A stretch of DNA of 64,000 bases from Isoetes taiwanensis (taxonomy: Eukaryota; Streptophyta; Lycopodiopsida; Isoetales; Isoetaceae), in contig JAJEKV010000052.1 of NCBI GenBank assembly GCA_021234155.1, positions 9,627,284 through 9,691,283 of the forward strand, given 5' to 3'. Below the pieces are notes generated by a model. The model worked only from the letters and a program-made list of their open reading frames with translations. It did not search any database and was not told the DNA's origin. The translations under genes and the position numbers were made by a program. Numbering within the stretch: the stretch's first letter is position 1; each line of letters begins with the position of its first letter. Shown piece after piece: positions 7,501 through 20,810 of the stretch.

Positions 7501-7979
7501 ATCATAATAGCTGGAGCCCCAAGCTTATTTGCTTGCTTCATTGTCCAGGAACAAGCTTGTAGCTATTGCATCAATTCGCACGGGGTCCCACGGGCTACGG
7601 ATTGAGACAGGTAGATGGGAGCGGCCGCAATTGCCGCGAGAAGCGAGACTATGTAAATGTTGTCAGTTACAGGTTATTGAAGATGAAGCCATACTCTTCT
7701 GAGTTGCCCTGCTTTTGAGATAGTCCGGAATCATTTTTTGACCTTGGCATTCCATTCCACGCTTCCACAACTTCTCAGAGCACCATCTGTGCATGACTTG
7801 GCATTATACATACTTGAGGTTCTAGATGAACGTCTTCAATTACTGAGCCCTCAGTAGTCATTATCTCCGATTGTCTAGTATCATCATTACTGCAAAGGTT
7901 TTTCCCTTGAAAACCTTTCGAGGTAGGGGTTTTTTAATCCTAGTAGTAATGATTGTACTAGCCCATATGACGTAAAAAT
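4582..7979. other. Relic-rich noncoding stretch
   Basis: No recognisable gene in 3.4 kb. A TATA-like CTATTTATA sits near 6201 after a G/C-richer stretch and could belong to an old LTR or a promoter; I could not find LTR ends or a primer-binding site to settle it. The part before 7980 (about 7900-7979, with a run into TATTC repeats) looks like the 3' end of a retroposed element, but its coding part cannot be identified. Confidence 0.35.
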
Positions 7980-8008
7980 ATCTATTCTATTCTATTCTAT
8001 TCTATTCC
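7980..8008 (+). repeat. TATTC microsatellite
   Basis: About five uninterrupted TATTC units, directly before the higher-order repeat array. Confidence 0.8.
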
Positions 8009-8009
8009 T

Positions 8010-8960
8010 TAAGGTATTTCACCATTCATTTGCTCCATGCAATTATCCACAACATATGCAACATGTCCACAGAAAAGAGGCATTTGTATACAATGAATAG
8101 GTTATTCGCATACAATTTGAACATAGAATATAAGGACCTTATATATGAATACATGGATTTCAAAGGTATTTCACCATTTATTTGCTCCATGCAATTATCC
8201 ACAAACGAATGCAACAAGTCCACAAAAAAGAGGCATTAAGGTATTTCACCATTCATTATGGATATAAGGACCTTATATATGAACACATGGATTTCAAAGG
8301 CATTTCACCATTTATTTGCTCCATGCAATTATCCACAAATGAATGCAACATGTCCACAAAAAAGAGGCATTAAGATATTTCACCATTCATTTGCTCCATG
8401 CAATTATCCACAACATATGCAACATGTCCACTGAAAAGAGGCATTTGTATACAATGAATAGGTTATTCGCATACAATTTGAACATAAAATAAATGAATGT
8501 GATTTTTTTTTCATCAATTATCCACAACATATGCAACATGTCCACAGAAAAGAGGCATTTGTATACAATGAATAGGTTATTCGCATACAATTGGAACATA
8601 GAATATAAGGACCTTATATATGAATACATGGATTTCAAAGGTATTTCACCATTTATTTGCTCCATGCAATTATCCACAAATGAATGCAACATGTCCAGGC
8701 ATTAACGTATTTCACCATTCATTATGGATATAAGGACCTTATATATGAACACATGGATTTCAAAGGCATTTCACCATTTATTTGCTCCATGCAATTATCC
8801 ACAAACGAATGCAACATGTCCACAAAAAAGAGGCATTAAGATATTTCACCATTCATTTGCTCCATGCAATTATCCACAACATATGCAACATGTCCACTGA
8901 AAAGAGGCATTTGTATACAATGAATACAATTTGAACATAAAATAAATGAATGTGATTCTT
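8010..8960 (+). repeat. Higher-order tandem repeat array
   Basis: A block with the recurring words 'ttcaccatt', 'tgctccatgcaattatccac', 'aacatgtccac' and 'aaaagaggcatt' is repeated many times in units of about 70-150 bp. The units form a larger pattern: the series from about 8010 to 8378 recurs from about 8516 to 8866, joined by partial units. Frames on both strands are repeat translations. The array stops next to the tRNA-Thr gene. Confidence 0.85.
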
Positions 8961-9783: not shown

Positions 9784-10514
9784 AAAGCAAGCCTTACTTT
9801 TATGGCTAGGCGGACTTGTAGGACAACCTGCTACTTTGAATTTTTGTTTGATATCATGTATTGACAGGGACATGGCGTTTACATTAAATCTAGTTTGAAC
9901 CTATGTAAAACCAAATTGATATGCTAAATACTGCTTAGTAGCTCTGCTAATAAATTCTTAGGTGTTCTATTTTTGAGGGAAAGTTGCTGAGCCTTTTATG
10001 AGCTCGTACTAAATTTGATAGACAAATATCTGGCAGACTTCTGATAATTGTATATTTGGAACATGAAGGGCTTGCCTTTAATAGTTTGTATTCTATTTTC
10101 TTTTTCCATTTCATGTACTATTGTATTTCAAGGGCACAAGAGTATAGTTGGTGAAGGGTGGAAAACCAAGAAACAATATGTCCTTTATGGCCCTTGAATC
10201 ACTACCAGTATTTGTCAAGATATATGATATCGAGATCACCATCTTGCTGCTAGACGTGATGTCACAGAACTTATGTAACGTTCCTAACCGACATGCCCTT
10301 AACCAACTAGGCAAAACCGTCTAGACGTTTATGAGTAGTCGCTTCTACCCATTTATGTCGGTGTCTCGGGAATGCGATATCAATCTTCCAGAAGTCTTAG
10401 GGAACCATATGGAATCTTAGAGAATCTAAAGAAACTTGAGAGATTTTAAGGGAATCCTTATGGCTACCTAGCACGACAAATTTTACTCAAGCTGAAGGAT
10501 AATTTTATTATTCA
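9784..10514. other. Noncoding, relic sequence
   Basis: No gene recognised. A short minus-strand frame at 10111-10314 has no motif. The neighbouring downstream sequence is the 3' tail of the DUF7869-like relic. Confidence 0.35.
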
Positions 10515-11013
10515 CCCTCATCATCATCTTTTTCCTCATTAGAAACCATGTGTCTCAACTAAGAGGCCACGTCGTTTGGGATCAAAACAGTTGAAGGCAT
10601 CCCTTCAACTGTCCATACAAAATCAGTGGTTTTTACTGTTTGGTATTGAGGCCGATCATTAGGGTTAGGCCTCCACCTCTTCTCCTAACAATTGACGTAG
10701 TATTGGGATAGGATACAATCCCTATTGACAGGCTCCCACCAAGAGATATATACCTCTTCATAGTGAGGGTCTTTTGGGTCTTCTATAGAGTTTTCTTTTG
10801 CATAAGCTAACCATGTTGGACAGCTATCACCTGGCCTCACAAGCAAGGACATATCTTTCTTAGCTTTTGGGTTTTGGGTTTTGGATGGGCTTTCGCGTTT
10901 TTGATTAGGTGGACCTACATATGCTGGTACACCTTACTTTCTTGCTGAAACATAAACTTTGATGCAACCAAAGAATCATGTCGTGTGCGGGGGAAGAAAT
11001 CATGCATGTCAGA
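10515..11013 (-). pseudogene. DUF7869-like gene, C-terminal part beyond the transposon
   Basis: The minus strand here is coding-like. From the insertion point it reads DMHDFFPRTRH and onward. After a one-base shift near 10930 it continues through VPAYVGPPNQKR, LLVRPGDSCPTWLAYAKEN and EEVYISWWEPVNR to a TAG near 10680, then coding-like sequence again to about 10515. The frame at 11013 is the one left at 16375 on the other side of the CACTA-like element, so this is the rest of the gene at 16375-19150. The Tyr-Val-Gly-Pro and Trp-Trp words fit what I remember of the C-terminal region in LDN/VGHTH-type proteins, but this part is less diagnostic than the LDN core. Function is unknown. It is broken by a frameshift and at least two stops. 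Confidence 0.5.
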
Positions 11014-11029
11014 CACAAGGCACCCAAAA
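11014..11029 (+). repeat. Left terminal inverted repeat of the CACTA-like element
   Basis: CACAAGGCACCCAAAA, preceded by the target duplication AGA. Confidence 0.75.
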
Positions 11030-11129
11030 ATTTAACCCCTATAATAAAGCACTAGTAAACCACTATAGAGGTGGTTTTTTATGTTAAAATTTTCATTCTT
11101 CACAAAAACCACATAACATAGTGGTTTTC

Positions 11130-11510
11130 ATAACTAGTACATGGTTATCCATGTTGATTTTTTGTTATAGCGTCATTTATAAAAACCGATATTAGCTTAT
11201 TACATGGTTTCTAGCATCAATAGTGGTAATTCATGTTGGTTTTCTAATGTAGCAGGGTTTATCAAATTGATGGTGGGTTGAGCATGGTTTTTCACACCAC
11301 TTTAGTATGGCAACGGTTGTTTATGTTGGCTTTCTATTGTCACAAAGTCAAAGTAGTGTATGCCATAGTTTTTCATACTAATTTAAATACCATGGTGGTT
11401 ATTCATGCCAGTTTTCTATTATCACGGTGTACATTATAAAATGGAGGTGGTTTATAGCATAGTTTCAATACCGAGTTGATTGTTATGGTAATTGTTCATA
11501 GATTTCACCT
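11130..11510 (+). repeat. Subterminal array, units of about 84 bp
   Basis: Diverged copies of a unit starting 'tggttattcatgttggttttct' in variant forms begin near 11143, 11224, 11312 and 11396. The array lies inside the left end of the CACTA-like element. Confidence 0.55.
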
Positions 11511-13779
11511 AAAATGATGTAGCTATCCAGAGTGGTTACTCATCATAAGGTTCCCAAAAAAACACTTGTCTCATAACTAACCACTATCAAACCACTTGTT
11601 TTCTTGAAGCACACCAGACTTTATTTAAATATCAAGCAAACTAGTACATGTGCAAATACAAAGGCGTCTTTTGTAATTTATAATTTATCATTGTTGGGTC
11701 TTTTAAAAATTATTTTGCATCATTAGGAAACCAATATAGAGTAGTGGTTTTCTAGAACTATATGCAATTGCACTCACACTTCTTACATCAACTAGTAGAG
11801 GTTTATTTCATGGTTTTTAAATTTTAATACCCACTTAATAACCCATGGCCAAGTATGTATTGACGTCATGCTACAACCGTCTTCGAAAGATGGGAACTAG
11901 AAATTACCTTTTCAAAGATGGGAATTATTCTCGAGATTATTTTTTTCAATAAATTGAATTGATCTGTGTCGTCCATAGTATCCAAATTATCTATGAGTCT
12001 ATGAGATTCAATACAAGGACAAGGATAGGCATGCAAACCAATAATGTCATTATTATTTTTTTAGGTTAATTTTTCATATCTAGATTTCCTTGGTCCCAGT
12101 GTTTTTTTCTTTTTTTTGCTAGTTTGTTATTGTGGAAGTTGAAAATCTAGAAGGTTATTTCTTGAAAGTTTTGTTGATCATTTTAAATTGAATAATATTT
12201 TTTCCATCTAAATTGAAGGACATATTTTATATCTATATTTCTTTCTTGAAAAACGTAAGAAAAAGTTCATATTAACATATATAGAAATAATAGTAGACAC
12301 TTGACCAAAACATGTGATACCACCACCAAATATCTAATACATAACTAGGATTTGAGTCTCAGACCATTAATCAAGCCTTGGAGAATGCCTCTTGAATATA
12401 CGCCACAATCAACAATGTTAGGCATCATGCTATAAAAGAAAGGGCAATTTATAAAAATGCCTTTGCATTCTATCAAAATTATGAAAATACCTTGTATTTT
12501 CATAAATTAAGGAAATGCCCATGTAATTCAACAGAGCAATATATAGCTGCAGATCCTTGTCCATCACAAATCTGCTTTGCTGGCTTAACAAATCCTATCT
12601 ACAAGGTCCATCTTTGCATTGACAAATCTAATTTACTTGTCAAATTTGTGTTGTGCAAATTAGCCTTTGTGATATATCATCTTAACATCTTTAGCCAATA
12701 TGAGGTGGAATGGTTGCAGGATATTGTGGAGCTATTATAGCAATGTTAAGGAGCTAATGTACGGATTTGGATTTTTTTTTATGGGGTCACTCGACATGAA
12801 GTATTTGAGAAACCTAATGCATTATCTCACAATGCATCAAATGCTAGAAATATTTGAAATGATTCTTTCTTTGCTAGTTTTTATTTGCGCCTAACAACGC
12901 TTAGAATTTATGGCAAGCTTCATTCCATGGGTTAGGATTAAGGAATTTTTTCACGACCATAAATCTTTTGCAAAATAAATCTTGCAAAGGGGATTAAATA
13001 CCTCTCCCTCGAGAACTACAAAATACCCTTATGTTTTGTCGAAATTCATGAGATGCTCCCCGAGATTTATTCTATTCATGGGATGTCCTTGCTCATTGTG
13101 CATGCCCCTCAGATAAATATGATTTTCATCAAATGCCCTCTACATATAAGTATTTGTCGAGGCGACCTTACGCAATGGAATGTACATCGGACTTTATTTG
13201 GCCTTTGTTTGGCGAAGGCACTCAATTGCAACTAGATAGCATCCATCGGCTTATATCAACAACCCAACATTCAACCACGGTGAATCCATAAATTTTGGAA
13301 TTTAGGGGCCGATTATTGCCTCGTAAGTTCTGTACTTCAATTCATATACAAATTAATGGTTTCTTGCATGCATGCATGATCTAGAGTTCAAGAAAGAATT
13401 GAAGGTCGAATTCGTTAACCAGAGGCGCAAAGCAAAGCAAGATTTTCTCGATTTTGATGGAACTGACAATGCTACATAGGATGTGGATAGTCAGATGCAT
13501 TATGTTCTAGTAAAATTGAGGACGTTGAAGGATAAGTCTAGAATCAAGTCTCAATCATTTGAAATTTAATTAGCAAAAGCATTTGGTAAATTATCAAGAA
13601 TCTTAGCTTCATGAATTAACGTAAGTCTTAAGATAAGTCGTAAAGGTATTTGAACAACTTTAAAAGGTATAAAATATTGTAATGCTAAGCAAGAGCATCC
13701 CATGAATAAAATAGAACTGAGGGGCATCTCATGGATTTTGACAAAACATAAGAATATTTTGTAGTTTTTCCCTACAAAA

Positions 13780-15310
13780 TAACAATATAGAAGTTGGGTC
13801 CGTTCTTTTTGCTGGGAACCAGTCTTTTATCGACGCATGGCAGCATCCAATAACACGGAATGGGGCTTGGGTTCGCCCATTCCGCTTCGACCAAACCGCC
13901 AGGCTAGGTTTTTTTTAGGTTAGGGTTCTTCGTGCTGCGAGCTTGCCGCCGCCCGAGCTTCGGAGGGGATTCGCAGTGTCTGTTTGTTGCCTCTCGACCA
14001 CTTCCCCTGCTTGATCTCGGCTCTTCGATGGAGAAAAAATCGCTTCCCTTGTTTGAATTGTTCTTCCGCCGTTTGATCTGTTCTATAGATGAAGAAAAAA
14101 CATGCCCCGATCTGCAGATGGTGGAAGCGTAACGGCTATGGCGTGAGCTTACGAATTTGTTATGGAGAAAATATTTGATCCGCTCATTGTTAAATTTGAA
14201 GCTCCTCCGATCGCTCTTTTGTTGCATCTGCTCTTTGTCTTTGTTACAAAATAACATAGGATTTGAAATATTATCAAATTAAAGGGAAAATGCACGCAAC
14301 GGGTAGAAATAACGGCTAGGTGGGAGGGTCGTGTGTGTTTGCTTCTTTGGCGATCTGTCATATTCAAATGGTTCAACACGAGAACCTTATGCTTTTGTTA
14401 TTTTTGAAAATAGATGCGCCATAGCCATGGCGGCTAAGCGCGTTGTTCTCGTGCAAATAGAAAGACTATTACCGCTGCGTCTTGAGCTCAAGAATGCTTC
14501 CTTGATCGCTAGACGTGAATCTTCCTCTATTTGCATGAAGCGATGTAGCTATGGCGCAATGCGATTCCTCGCCCATCCGGCAAATCCGTGTTTTTCTTAC
14601 GATATTTGTTTATATGCTTATCCCCTAATTTTTGCTTCTAATCGATGTTCTATTTAAACTGTAGGAAGCTTGAGGATATATGTGTTTTCTTATGGAACTA
14701 GAGTGTTTTCTTTAAGGCTCTCCATTTTGAGCTACTGGCCCGGTGCACAAAGTTTGGGCTATGGCGTAATCCTGCGATTAACCTGCACCCGTAAGGGTTC
14801 TTATCATCTTAAACTTTCCGAATGGAATGAGCTAAACATTGCGCTTTCGTGGTTCAACAAAGGCCTTTGTATCAGATCGACGATGGCATCTAAGATCGTT
14901 TGGACTCTTATTTAATTTATTACATCCCTCCCTTTGCTTCTCAAAATAACCATTTTCATTTGCAGGTTTCGATTCCTAAGCGAACATTTTCATTTGCAAG
15001 TTCGATACTTGGAAAGCCATTCCATTGGCTTATCGCAGGTAAGCTCAATTCACTCTTCCCAGGTTTTAGATTATAGTCACCGGCCATGGCTATGAATTGC
15101 CCCTTTTCTTTTTGTAGCATTTGTATTGAATGGTTCTATTTATTGGCAGTTTAAAGATGGAGTTAAACTATTTCGCAAGCAACAACAGTCCTCCTGCATT
15201 CCATTAATTCTTAACATTTTGCCTTTTTCATATTCCTTTGTTTTCCACTAATCTTTTATCCCCTGTTTTTTAACAGAGAACCAAGCTCTGGCTATGGCAT
15301 CCATCTTCTA
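13780..15310. other. GC-richer interior of the transposon, possible captured fragment
   Basis: Base composition rises here relative to the rest of the element. There is a telomere-like TTAGGTTAGGG near 13915 and several intron-like TTTGCAG words (about 14960 and 14995). It could be the first exon and leader of a captured gene. No frame matches a family I know. Its start resembles sequence near 1816. Confidence 0.3.
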
Positions 15311-16358
15311 TCAAGAAGTGATATGAAGGTCAGGTGTGCAATGCTTGAATAAAGTAACTTAGTACATTGTTTGAAAAGAGAACATAATTCTAATCAATAC
15401 TTGCAGAAGAGAAGATATATTGGAACTTTGAACAATACAGAGATAAAGACTGGCTGATGCATGCCAGAGGCCCATTTTTAAAACTTCAGATGACTTAGAT
15501 ATGCATGTCAGGATTCAGAAGGTAGATGAATTCTGGGCCTTGTTGCGTCACAGATTAAACTAGAGGTGATTATGTATGCACTTAAACTTAAATACAAGTG
15601 CAAGATAGTACTTTTTTGCTGCATTGACTTTACTTCTGGCTATGATTTAAATTTGTTCTATGCGAATTTCTGGCAATAACTTCATCGTTGTTTATGAGTT
15701 TTGGAAATGGTTGGGGTTCAAATCCCCTTGCTTTAAACAACATAGACATTACTGGTTGAAAATGATAATCGGTAGTTTTAGTTTCTTGAACTTGAAATGC
15801 TTCAAAGAACAAAACATTGCTAGTTATATATGATAACCAAATAATTTTATTCTCCTAAATTTGAAATGCTTCAAACAACACAATGTTACTGGTTATAAAT
15901 GATAACCATGAAGATAATGGTTAACATTATGGATTTATAGATGATAACCATGAAACTAATGTATAACAGAACCATGCACACTTAGAACAAACACAGCGGG
16001 GAAGACGTCCATTTACCATGACATTTAACCATGCCAGTTTACCACAATAACCAACCATGTTATGAATCACATGAATAGAGCATTATATTAAACTATCATG
16101 TTATACCACGTGGGCAAACCATAGCCTTACACTATAATTATACCACATCATTTTACCAATATGTAATACCACTTTGACCAACTCTACAAAAGAAGCCATT
16201 GCACTTACCATGCCATAATACCACTCCACCAAACCTTACAAGAGAACCCATTAAGTTACCCACATATGGTTTTTAATGAAATTAACCCCCAAACACCCAT
16301 TGGTTTTGTGGAATGGTTTTCTAGTCATAACCATGAAAAGAACCATGTAGTGTTTTAA

Positions 16359-16374
16359 TTTTGGGTGCCTTGTG
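16359..16374 (-). repeat. Right terminal inverted repeat of the CACTA-like element
   Basis: Exact reverse complement of 11014-11029, followed by the target duplication AGA. Confidence 0.75.
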
Positions 16375-19150
16375 AGATGGACCAGCATTCACCTCACCAA
16401 GCACACGTAGAAGACCCAACTAGCAGTTAATAACCTCATTGATGTATGCACTAGACCACGATTGCTCTTCTCTCTTTGAGATGACTATCCAATGCATGAT
16501 GTACTTTGTTATGGAGCTTCTCAAAGCACCTATATCCTTAAGAGCATTCACTGGCGGTACAGTCTTTGGCACTCGTGAGGAATCATGGGTGTGCCCTCTG
16601 CATCTTCCTTTCACATTTTGATACCCTTCTCCGGCAGCCATTCTCGATGCTCAGGACTCATCTTATAGAACCTTAGAGGCCAACCATCTTTTTTGCAAAA
16701 CTTGAACAACAATGGTTCTAGACACAATCTTGTAGGGCATTGTAACACTTATTATCCAGGACAGGTGCAGCTTTGAATAGTCTCAAAATTTAAACAATTG
16801 ATATGAGAAAGGATAAATGGGGGGCTTCTGAGATGAACAAGCAAAAATGTCATATAATGTATACGGTTGCATAAATAAGAAGGCAAAAACATGCCCATTC
16901 ACCTACAGGTTTCAGGATAGCCAATAAGGTGAAGCCCATGAATTTCTATAATCAAACTACATAGGAACATCAGCATACATGTCTTTTCCTCCTTTGCACA
17001 GCAATCTAATAAGCACAAGGGTCCAGCAGCATGTTATGTTCAGTCTAACCTCATAATGTATAGCAATCTGATAAACACAAGGGTCCAGCAGAATTTTGTG
17101 TTCAGTTTAACCTGAAAAGTGTGAAGTAAGTATTTTCCCTTGAGCAAGGAAGAAACAATTTGACATAAATGTAATTAGAGGGATAAACATAAAAAAAGGC
17201 TGTAAACTTTAGATCATCAAAAGCAATTACAGCATCAGATGCTCCACGAAATTGATCAGAAATCAATCAGTAGTGCTTTTATATACCTACAATAAGGTAG
17301 GACTATTTTGAAAAGGCATGATCTTTAAGTTCCTTATTTCCACAAGAGAATTTGTGCATCCTCAAAGAACATGAAGATTCATTATGTGCACATTCACAAA
17401 GTTTCTTTAAGAGTTTGGATACATGCCACGCCTTATTAGTGCAGCACATAACCACCACATTCATGCAAGAAGAACTGCAAATGAGATGTATCGGTCTACA
17501 TTGTGAGCATGTGTGCTCAAATAGTTAGTCTAGCATCACTTCTGATGAATGTTTCCTGATGCCTTTGTAAATTAAGTTGTCACTTAACTTTAACCCTCTC
17601 TCTGACAGCATAATAAGCTTATTAAAATGCAATAATAAAACTATGATTGATGTTGGCATCTGACCGTCTGCGGGTGAAGACTCCCAAAAGAATCTTCTGG
17701 TTCCGGATTCTGCTCCCCAAAAGAGATTTTACCATTTGTGATCCTCAAGAATCACCCAACCTCTTGCAACCAACATAAATGTGCTACAGCATTTAGAAGC
17801 TCTTTCCAAAATAACTAAGTAGCAAGAGATCCAACTAAGAAAATTTCCCTCTCTCCATCAAAGATGGTTCTGATGCCATTATAGAGTTGGAAAAAATCAG
17901 TATCATAACGAAATGAGATAGCAAACAAGGGAACTAAAGCATATTGTGCCTAGAAGCTCGCTAACCAAAGCAAATAAAAAATGATCACATATGATTTTGC
18001 TTGGCCGAGGTTATTCATGCCTTAGACCTCTAACAGCTTTCTGCAATAGATCACCCTTTCAATCACGAACCCCATGCACAAGGTAAGGCATTGGAGCCTT
18101 TGAACTATATTGCTAGAACAAATGCATTAACTCTGCATCTCTCCTTCTCAAAAGAAGTAATTGTCAAATAGAACATATATATCACCATGTGTATGACCAA
18201 CCATCATGAACCCCAGTTGCACCTCATCAAAGACACCTTGCCACACAAAGGTAAGAAAAGTATGAGACACATATCTGTTCTTGTTCTGGCTGGAGCAATT
18301 ATCAAGCTGAAGGTAAAGCCTCCTTGGTAGCTTTTTTTATTGTGAGATCTCTTTAAGAGGCACATCGTATGATTTGCCCGTAGTAATGGCCATATTAGTC
18401 TTCAAAGCCTTAGAATCTAGAATTGAAGAACCCCACACACATGTTGGCCTAGATATATCACGCAAGTGGCCCAAGTTATCTTCATCTAAATATTCTAGTG
18501 TTTTCAATACATGATTGATAGACCCAATGTCAAAGTTAGAGTTATCCTTCCCAAGCTCCTGACCCATGACCATGCATCAAAGCTCTAGTGATGCTAAACT
18601 TCACGGGCTCCCCTCTCCATGATGATTTGGCTAACTTTTCAAGCCTAGACACCATAGTCTTATTTTGGTCTATTTTATCATGAATAATTGTAAGAGTTTC
18701 ATCTAGCAACGATGCGACAGTGCTCATTAAAACTAGTAAAAGCTTATACAAGATAGTTGTTATATATGACTCTTCCTTTTCCATGCTAACTCTCTTCTTT
18801 CTAATAGATCATGTATTTTAGACAATTTTTGTTTGATGACTATACATGTATTACATATGGAGAAAGCTGTTCGCTTGGCTATGGCAACCCCCGAGTGATT
18901 ATCCTTTTGAGCCTTAAGCACATCCTTAAAAGTCAGCCTCTATAGCAATATCAACTTATACATTCTTCTTGGTCAGAACAGAATGCATCTTTAATAAATT
19001 CTCTCTCATCCCTTGTGTGGTCTTCTTTGATCTATGTGACATAATCTTAGCAATCTTAGCAATATACAATGTGAATATGCTATCTGCTACCAAAGTATGG
19101 GATCTAGATTTCATTGAACCCGAATTTCCATGCTCATCTACCATGTGGCC
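16375..19150 (-). pseudogene. DUF7869-like gene relic, main part
   Basis: The minus strand at about 18330-18170 encodes LYLQLDNCSSQNKNRYV followed, about 20 residues later, by GFMMVGHTHGDI. After a one-base shift near 18140 comes LRRRDAE. The LDN, NKN, VGHTHxDxD and LRRRD words in this order are the hallmark of a widespread uncharacterised, possibly transposase-derived family (DUF7869, named from memory). The final Asp is Tyr here. Further down the strand, 16730-16620 gives GWPLRFYKMSPEHREWLPEKG, and 16580-16384 gives a helical C-terminal segment with a TAG near 16418. At the upstream side, coding-like sequence (18337-19144) with two frame changes may be the N-terminal part, but I cannot match it. 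Multiple frameshifts and stops, plus the transposon insertion at 16374, make it a pseudogene. Confidence 0.55.
17001..17120 (+). repeat. Tandem duplication of about 62 bp
   Basis: Two diverged copies share 'agcaatct', 'cacaagggtccagcag' and 'gttcagt'. The duplication lies in the gap or intron between recognised parts of the DUF7869-like relic. Confidence 0.7.
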
Positions 19151-20810
19151 TTCTACTAAATTCTTCTTTCACCTGTAGAAAGTTGACAAAAGTATGTCAT
19201 AAGCCCATCATCGAGCTTGCTGGCAGACCTCCACTATCTATCTATCTATCTTATTGTTAAGCATCACGGTGCCAACCTGACCATCAACAATACATACATC
19301 AAACATGTTATAGACAAAGGTTGTTCTATCTGATCATTTCATATTCCAGTGAAAGGTTCCGTGGTTTTGTCTTATTCATGCCAGGGTGTACCAATTTTTG
19401 TACCCTTTGAGGTACTCAAACACTAGATACCTTATGGGCTTGGTGGTGACTTTGGTTCCCAAATTTTGTATTGATCTTATAAATGTGTTTTTGATTTGTG
19501 TTTGTAATATTTGAATTCCTCTTAACAAAAGGAAAAAAAGGTACTCAGTTGTTGATTAACTGGCGGTATGTACTTTGGGATGTACCAAAAGTGCTATATA
19601 CTAACATGCTATCCCAAAACATTTTAGAAAGATGAAATAGGTATTGAGAATAGTTGTGTTTGGTCAAATCTAGTAATATAAGATTGAAGCTTCTTTGCAG
19701 AACTAATAATCACTCATAAACTTATACCCGCACCATAGCAATCTCCAATTGCTTATCCTTTTTCATTGTAAATCATTGCTTCTTATAGTGTAAGATCTGC
19801 AATTATTTTCCATGTTGCTTTAAGACCTTTAGATCTAACTCGATTCTAAATAGCAGGCATACACATCTACAAAGATCCATTCGATTGTTTTGTAACCTTT
19901 AGTATAGAATTCATTTTGGACCCTTATAGGGTGCGAACCAGAATTGGGATCGTGGTTGGCGTTTACTATAAATCAATCTTAAGAGAAATGGGAGATAAAT
20001 ACTATTGTATGATATGAACATATGTAAAATAAGAAGAATCAAGTAAAAGATGTTAGACTAAACTCCATCATCTCTTCATGGCAAGACATCATTGGATGCT
20101 ATCACAAATTGCCACGTCGTTTTAAGAACTATGTTTACTTTGTTATGTTGATGATTACAGTGGGCCTAAATGTTTTAAACCACAGGCTTAGTGTTCGTGC
20201 TAAAAATAGCAAGAACCTTCCTCTAGGAAAAAAGTCTTGACGAAAACTCTAGTCTAACAAGTCCAAGTAGATATTGCTATGAGAGGTGTAAATCAAAAAT
20301 TGCCATCTCCTCATCATACCTGACGTGCTTGTCTTTGTGCCATATAGTATATTAAGAGAACTAGATAGTAAGTTGCAAGGAAGCTTGTTAACAAATATGA
20401 CAAAGCTAAGGGGGCTCCACTCATTTGTTGTATGTGTGTCCCATGAACCAATGTTAAATGTTCATGAAATATATATAGTAATTTAACATAAAGTTGTCTA
20501 CATGTCCCTTGGATTCTTATTTTGCTCCGTTTTAGGCAATAATACTCGACCAACCAAGACCGGTCTCAATCTGGAGATGCCACTTGCCAAATGGCCATGA
20601 GGCCACACCATAAGGACTAATTTCCACCACCACCTTGGACTTTGCAAGTATAGATTCAAGGGCTAGCTTATATAAATGGAGGCCGACTTTACATCTACAA
20701 GAAGAAGTATTCATTTGAATTTGTAGGTCAAAAATATGTAAATGCTATTAGTGTTAAAGTAGACAATTCAGGCCATACATGCAACAAAAGGCAAGACAGT
20801 TTGATGATGT
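19151..20810. other. Intergenic, nothing recognised
   Basis: AT-rich, with only short motif-free frames on either strand. Confidence 0.4.

Follow-up and report, generated by a model that had tools for sequence, protein, structure and literature searches.

What splits the minus-strand gene of the DUF7869 family in the window analysed here (the whole stretch of 64,000 nucleotides of Isoetes taiwanensis, contig JAJEKV010000052.1, positions 9,627,284 to 9,691,283), and was that gene intact when it was interrupted? A preliminary description of the same letters had placed a CACTA-like element between positions 11014 and 16374 and had taken its target for a formerly open gene. At 11014-16374 our analysis places, with high confidence, a DNA transposon of the cut-and-paste type, non-autonomous and CACTA-like in its anatomy. 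It lies in a DUF7869 gene copy that was broken before the insertion, one of a very high-copy family. The evidence that carries this reading was observed directly: the ends of the element, its subterminal repeats, genome copies that share those ends, empty sites, and duplications of 3 bp at 12 of the 14 elements compared.

The element and its same-ended relatives

The proposed boundaries proved exact: a perfect 16-bp inverted repeat bounds 11014-16374, and AGA stands outside both ends. The parts of the element are the following.

11014..16374, plus strand: CACTA-like non-autonomous transposon of 5361 bp, from its inverted ends, target duplication, family-wide ends, equal-length sister copy and empty sites
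11014..11029, plus strand: left terminal inverted repeat CACAAGGCACCCAAAA, from the sequence and the genome 16-mer count
16359..16374, minus strand: right terminal inverted repeat TTTTGGGTGCCTTGTG, the reverse complement of CACAAGGCACCCAAAA
11011..11013, no strand: target site duplication AGA, left copy
16375..16377, no strand: target site duplication AGA, right copy; single in the empty site L057
11014..11560, plus strand: family-shared left end rich in TGGTTT/AAACCA, from genome DNA matches and motif enrichment
15990..16374, minus strand: AAACCA-rich right end, common to the family in whole or in part, from blastn against 12 other elements and motif counts

After collapsing, the perfect inverted pairs of 16-mers in the window form nine groups, the CACAAGGCACCCAAAA pair included, so that an inverted pair alone is unremarkable; it is the genome count of CACAAGGCACCCAAAA that stands out. 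In the genome searched (1,658,258,908 bases in 1,110 contigs), this 16-mer is present in 784 copies (410 + 374), whereas the control pattern, its letters in reverse order, is absent. The preliminary description had proposed looking for further elements with the same ends and 3-bp duplications, and both were found. Fourteen elements were compared, namely the window element, 12 convergent end pairs no more than 20 kb apart, drawn from 100 of the 784 ends, and a sister copy described below. The 13 that were measured range from 5.2 to 18.3 kb. An identical triplet flanks both sides in the 12 elements with duplications (AGA, TTC, TGA, GAG, TTA, ACA, TAT, AAT, AAG, AGT, ATG and AGA), as against 3 of 182 comparisons in a control with mispaired flanks, and a flank match over 2, 4, 5 or 6 bp was seen in none of the 14.

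A PIF/Harbinger element would likewise leave duplications of 3 bp, and to that extent the observed length suits it. Such elements, however, target triplets of the TWA/TNA type, a rule that only one of the 12 duplications (TTA) fits. The CAC termini and dense subterminal repeats are also a better match for CACTA as defined in PMC8978399, and we regard a PIF/Harbinger origin as very improbable.

The same ends recur together with their neighbouring sequence. The left end (11014-11560) was recovered at 40 scored places, the window's own among them, at 83-100% identity (40 of 739 candidates). When the window element was aligned by blastn with each of the 12 others, the matches lay mainly near the ends, at ~74-87% over pieces of at least 200 bp, and the interiors differed. 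The ends of 13 elements contain AAAACCA 138 times (either strand counted), where the middles of these elements would predict 5.1. A second motif is oriented: CATGGT outnumbers ACCATG in 12 of 13 left ends (the exception being L038) and is found in none of the 13 right ends, 11 of which contain ACCATG.

Two side observations concern the element and its family. Nested within the window element, at 13014-13766, are inverted arms, 46 nt long with 89% complementarity and 36 nt long with 81%, which may represent a smaller repeat inserted there. On contig C96 (4938-186633, loci L022-L027), the left end occurs six times in one direction within 182 kb with near-equal flanks (ctcaaaac or tcaaaaac), which perhaps reflects a repeated segment carrying the element.

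The sister copy (L060) lies on another scaffold, C919, where the left 547 bases of the window element are matched at 100% identity (C919:5670857-5671403). It consists of 5,361 bases like the window element and has its own AGA duplication, and its flanks look unrelated to those in the window. The two copies differ at 227 of 5,396 aligned columns, grouped into 79 clusters; 32 of the differences are isolated single columns, 19 of them substitutions. CAG or CTG is present in the C919 copy at 43 of the 79 clusters (8.1 expected, with a maximum of 16 in 500 random draws) and in the window copy at 14. This clustering looks like leftover unpolished long-read errors in the window copy, and the true distance between the sister copies may be under 1%. 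The pattern calls for care with stops and frameshifts in this assembly.

Empty sites and the state of the target gene copy

If the element is an insertion, its removal together with one AGA should restore what was there before. The joining of both flanks in one minus-strand frame could be reproduced: LRVLGEVNAGPS and DMHDFFPRTRH fall into a single frame with an open run of 46 codons. Such a run is weak evidence by itself. The joined frame is solid because three loci are uninterrupted at the site and because of the codon-position counts against a paralogue. These relatives were found by searching the genome at the DNA level, the upstream flank serving as query (40 of 1,057 candidates scored), and they supply the empty site that the preliminary description had suggested looking for. 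One of them, L057, lies ~240 kb away on the same scaffold at 96% identity; it matches the joined flanks at 1102 of 1152 positions through the junction and has one TCT there, which is AGA on the minus strand. In L058, 686 of 880 positions are identical, again without interruption through the junction, and its continuing frame reads LRVLGEVDAGPSGMHDFFPRTRQ, although L058 carries stops at other places in that frame. L059 is likewise uninterrupted at the insertion site, where its triplet is TCC. Longer stretches around L058 and L059 (L063 and L064, respectively) confirm the uninterrupted site.

CACTA elements can excise, and the empty sites could in principle be excision products rather than sites that were never occupied. 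This is extremely unlikely, as three separate relatives, 74-96% identical, run through the site without a break and show no extra triplet or remnant.

Between the window and L058, differences fall at the three codon positions as 7, 16 and 33 of 110 each in the upstream flank (p = 1.3e-5) and as 36, 27 and 58 of 167, 166 and 168 in the downstream flank (p = 3.2e-4). A strong upstream bias is also seen between the window and L059 (p = 2.7e-7), as is an upstream bias between L058 and L059 (p = 0.007). We read this as the trace of one ancestral coding frame that would have spanned both flanks, with selection gone in two recent copies, those in the window and at L057. An insertion into once-coding minus-strand sequence, as first proposed, is thus borne out by the uninterrupted relatives and the codon-position counts. 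The gene copy can be divided as follows.

18931..19358, minus strand: degraded DUF7869 gene copy, 5' part, from homology to L063; L064 aligns through 19359-18054
18054..18856, minus strand: DUF7869 gene copy, central part, from homology to relatives and the PF25273 match of frame 18151-18333
16723..18053, no strand: older insert of 1.3 kb within this gene copy, missing from many relatives
16375..16722, minus strand: gene copy upstream of the transposon (L063 83.0%, L064 82.8%, L057 96%)
10466..11013, minus strand: gene copy downstream of the transposon (L063 75.0%, L064 74.7%), with a stop codon at 10508-10510

The limits first given for the gene, 10515-19150, need little correction: the relatives are homologous to the window from 19358/19359 to 10466/10476, and the stop codon lies just beyond the lower limit. 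Many of the listed relatives jump from query position ~927 to ~2259-2275, with short intervening sequences in L063 (62 bp) and L064 (48 bp), which marks 16723-18053 as an extra 1.3-kb segment. Partial copies of this insert are also seen on contigs C1087, C645, C914 and C1059.

The preliminary description went further and took the gene to be open when it was hit, so that the element would have disrupted a working gene. The frame that reads across the junction and the coding-type substitutions on both flanks against L058 are what one would expect in that case. The empty copy at L057 (near 9.399 Mb), however, already holds 750 bases of the 1.3-kb insert (the C914 copy holds the first 200), and it shares with the window a 1-base frameshift near QESKVYQ and an in-frame TAG (the VNC*EKR stop). 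Another stop, NC*LGLL, is found in the window only, L057 having TGG at that position. Some of the small lesions could be assembly errors, but the insert hardly can. Disruption of a working gene is therefore quite improbable; since the target copy was already broken, the insertion destroyed nothing functional. Given the lesions common to the window and L057, we infer that the DUF7869 copy was first broken by the older insert and small lesions, then duplicated and only then hit by the transposon.

Outside the element, positions 7976-8934 of the window contain a local repeat array in which several frames repeat the peptides FICSMQLSTNECN and MSTEKRHLYTMN.

Classification and the transposase

CACTA/EnSpm transposons of plants make 3-bp target duplications and carry several hundred base pairs of direct and inverted subterminal repeats, according to PMC8978399. 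The family found here resembles them in both respects, in short inverted ends that begin with CAC, in having many copies with no recognised transposase, and in sharing its genome with the tnp2 domain. It differs from that description in that its ends read CACAA, not CACTA, and in that tnp2 was present in none of the members read. The CACTA label given at the outset thus holds for the anatomy, whereas the terminal motif departs from it and a transposase of that type is unproven for the family.

The ends of CACTA/EnSpm elements can also read CACTG. Against the 784 ends of the form CACAAGG..., the genome has nine of the form CACTNGG...: seven CACTA, one CACTC, one CACTT and no CACTG.

The tnp2 domain (PF02992) is itself abundant, with 167 matches from the 150 candidates scored out of 2,310. 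A candidate end for tnp2 elements, CACTAGGGGGCCAAAA, has 51 copies, but in the four places read it is embedded in an unrelated repeat whose end lies close to a hairpin, and it was rejected. A repeat inserted at unrelated places was noted at L077, L078, L079 and L080; its shared sequence ends shortly after ACGGGAGTGCTGCAACACTCCCGTTTAATTTGCAATC, with small variations in L077 and a hairpin near the end, and we take it to be Helitron-like.

Several results weigh against the reading of a CACTA-like insertion into once-coding sequence. The terminal motif is CACAA, and an intact CACTA motif, as expected of CACTA/EnSpm ends, is absent. Two of the 14 elements have no matching triplet (L039+L040, cat and cta; L043+L044, ttt and tat). 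When frames of at least 30 residues in L001-L046, L060 and the window were searched with a profile built from 10 tnp2 frames, there was no match at E up to 1. These loci comprise 14 paired elements together with 30 one-ended loci of 3 kb, of which at least four are ends of the same paired elements. Nor did any listed tnp2 place (150 of the 2,310 candidates scored) lie within 20 kb of a listed family end when compared by eye with 100 of the 784 ends and further end matches, the nearest being ~28 kb away on C412. On the side of the target, L058 has in-frame stops, so that among the relatives read there is no intact close one. The downstream codon-position bias between the window and L059 is marginal (p = 0.06), none is seen downstream between L058 and L059 (p = 0.56), and none between the window and L057 (p = 0.35 and 0.82), where only 13 and 15 differences are available. 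As the mobilising enzyme is not linked to the family, the name CACTA denotes a likeness and not a membership. An autonomous CACTA/EnSpm member is expected to encode a tnp2 DDE transposase and a second gene of the TNPA type; no autonomous member was recovered in this sample, outside which such copies may lie.

The mechanism we favour for the family is cut-and-paste transposition in trans. A transposase supplied in trans, presumably of the tnp2 (EnSpm) type whose domain is abundant in the genome, would bind the 16-bp ends as well as the subterminal repeats rich in AAACCA and excise such elements; insertion at a staggered cut would then leave a 3-bp duplication, here AGA.

With Pack-CACTA elements, as outlined in PMC8903248, the family has in common that it is non-autonomous and that its ends are conserved and its interiors variable; unlike them, the window element contains no recognised captured host gene. 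Two interior frames of the window element matched no family over its curated cut-off, and among 10 frames taken from the elements one did, a hAT dimerisation domain in L035 (21.7 versus 21.4 bits). Pieces of the window element's interior recur at other places, several of which belong to its own family (40 of 146 candidates scored), and we therefore claim no gene capture.

DUF7869 as a repeat family and significance

The core of the target matches PF25273 (DUF7869) with E 3.8e-20 over a 61-residue frame (18151-18333), at 72.7 bits against a curated cut-off of 26. It is like the Pfam family in its profile match, the window copy being fragmentary and the family very high-copy in this genome: a first look gave 9,904 candidates, and all 150 that were scored matched with E < 1e-45. 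With a target family this abundant, the locus is probably a transposon inside another repeat. Among the 30 one-ended loci there are also two, L003 and L005, situated within or next to DUF7869 frames. Homology to a 987-aa frame of another DUF7869 locus, L061, extends in L003 up to the last base before the element end, and in L005 it breaks off ~33 bp from that end.

At L061 (3546-6509 and 7284-8024) and L062 (2999-5572 and 356-1765), the DUF7869 frame is accompanied by a second, oppositely directed frame. Around this second frame lie short repeats that code for PEYTLAF-like peptides; the frame itself, 469 aa long in L062, gave no Pfam match at E 0.1. When 13 sequences, most of them from one subfamily, were aligned, D637, N638, N643, K644, N645, G672, H673, T674 and H675 were invariant. 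These features suggest that the DUF7869 gene is part of a mobile element, although no ends, fold or known relative came to light. A bolder proposal, which we advance only tentatively and consider somewhat doubtful, is that the split gene would itself be transposase-like and belong to a class of mobile element that is undescribed and very abundant in this lycophyte, with DUF7869 (conserved D-N, N-K-N and G-H-T-H) as its catalytic part, carried with the second, opposite gene; the locus would then be three nested repeats.

Searches for relatives and termini of DUF7869 were negative within their scope. No sequence match was found in PDB by single sequence or by profile, and comparison with tnp2 by hhalign gave no similarity, the alignments being shallow (Neff 1.1). 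Peptide patterns found no close relative in viral contigs. The scanned boundary stretches of L063 and L064 contained no inverted end of at least 8 bp with a target duplication, and in L061 and L062 nothing emerged beyond short inverted pairs, taken as chance. The name DUF7869 was not found in the literature searched.

As for the transposon family, the words CACTA and EnSpm are absent from the portions of text searched in the quillwort genome papers PMC8566536 and PMC10541799, and a literature search pairing Isoetes with EnSpm found nothing. The end sequence CACAAGGCACC gave only matches with titles on other subjects.

The biology seen at this locus is ordinary for plant transposons. It shows that an empty site elsewhere in the genome can prove a reading made from raw sequence (ends, duplication and joined frame). 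A large, apparently recently active CACTA-like family with a CACAA terminus is described here in a lycophyte. DUF7869 is a high-copy repeat protein in this genome, and caution is needed before its copies are counted as ordinary host genes.

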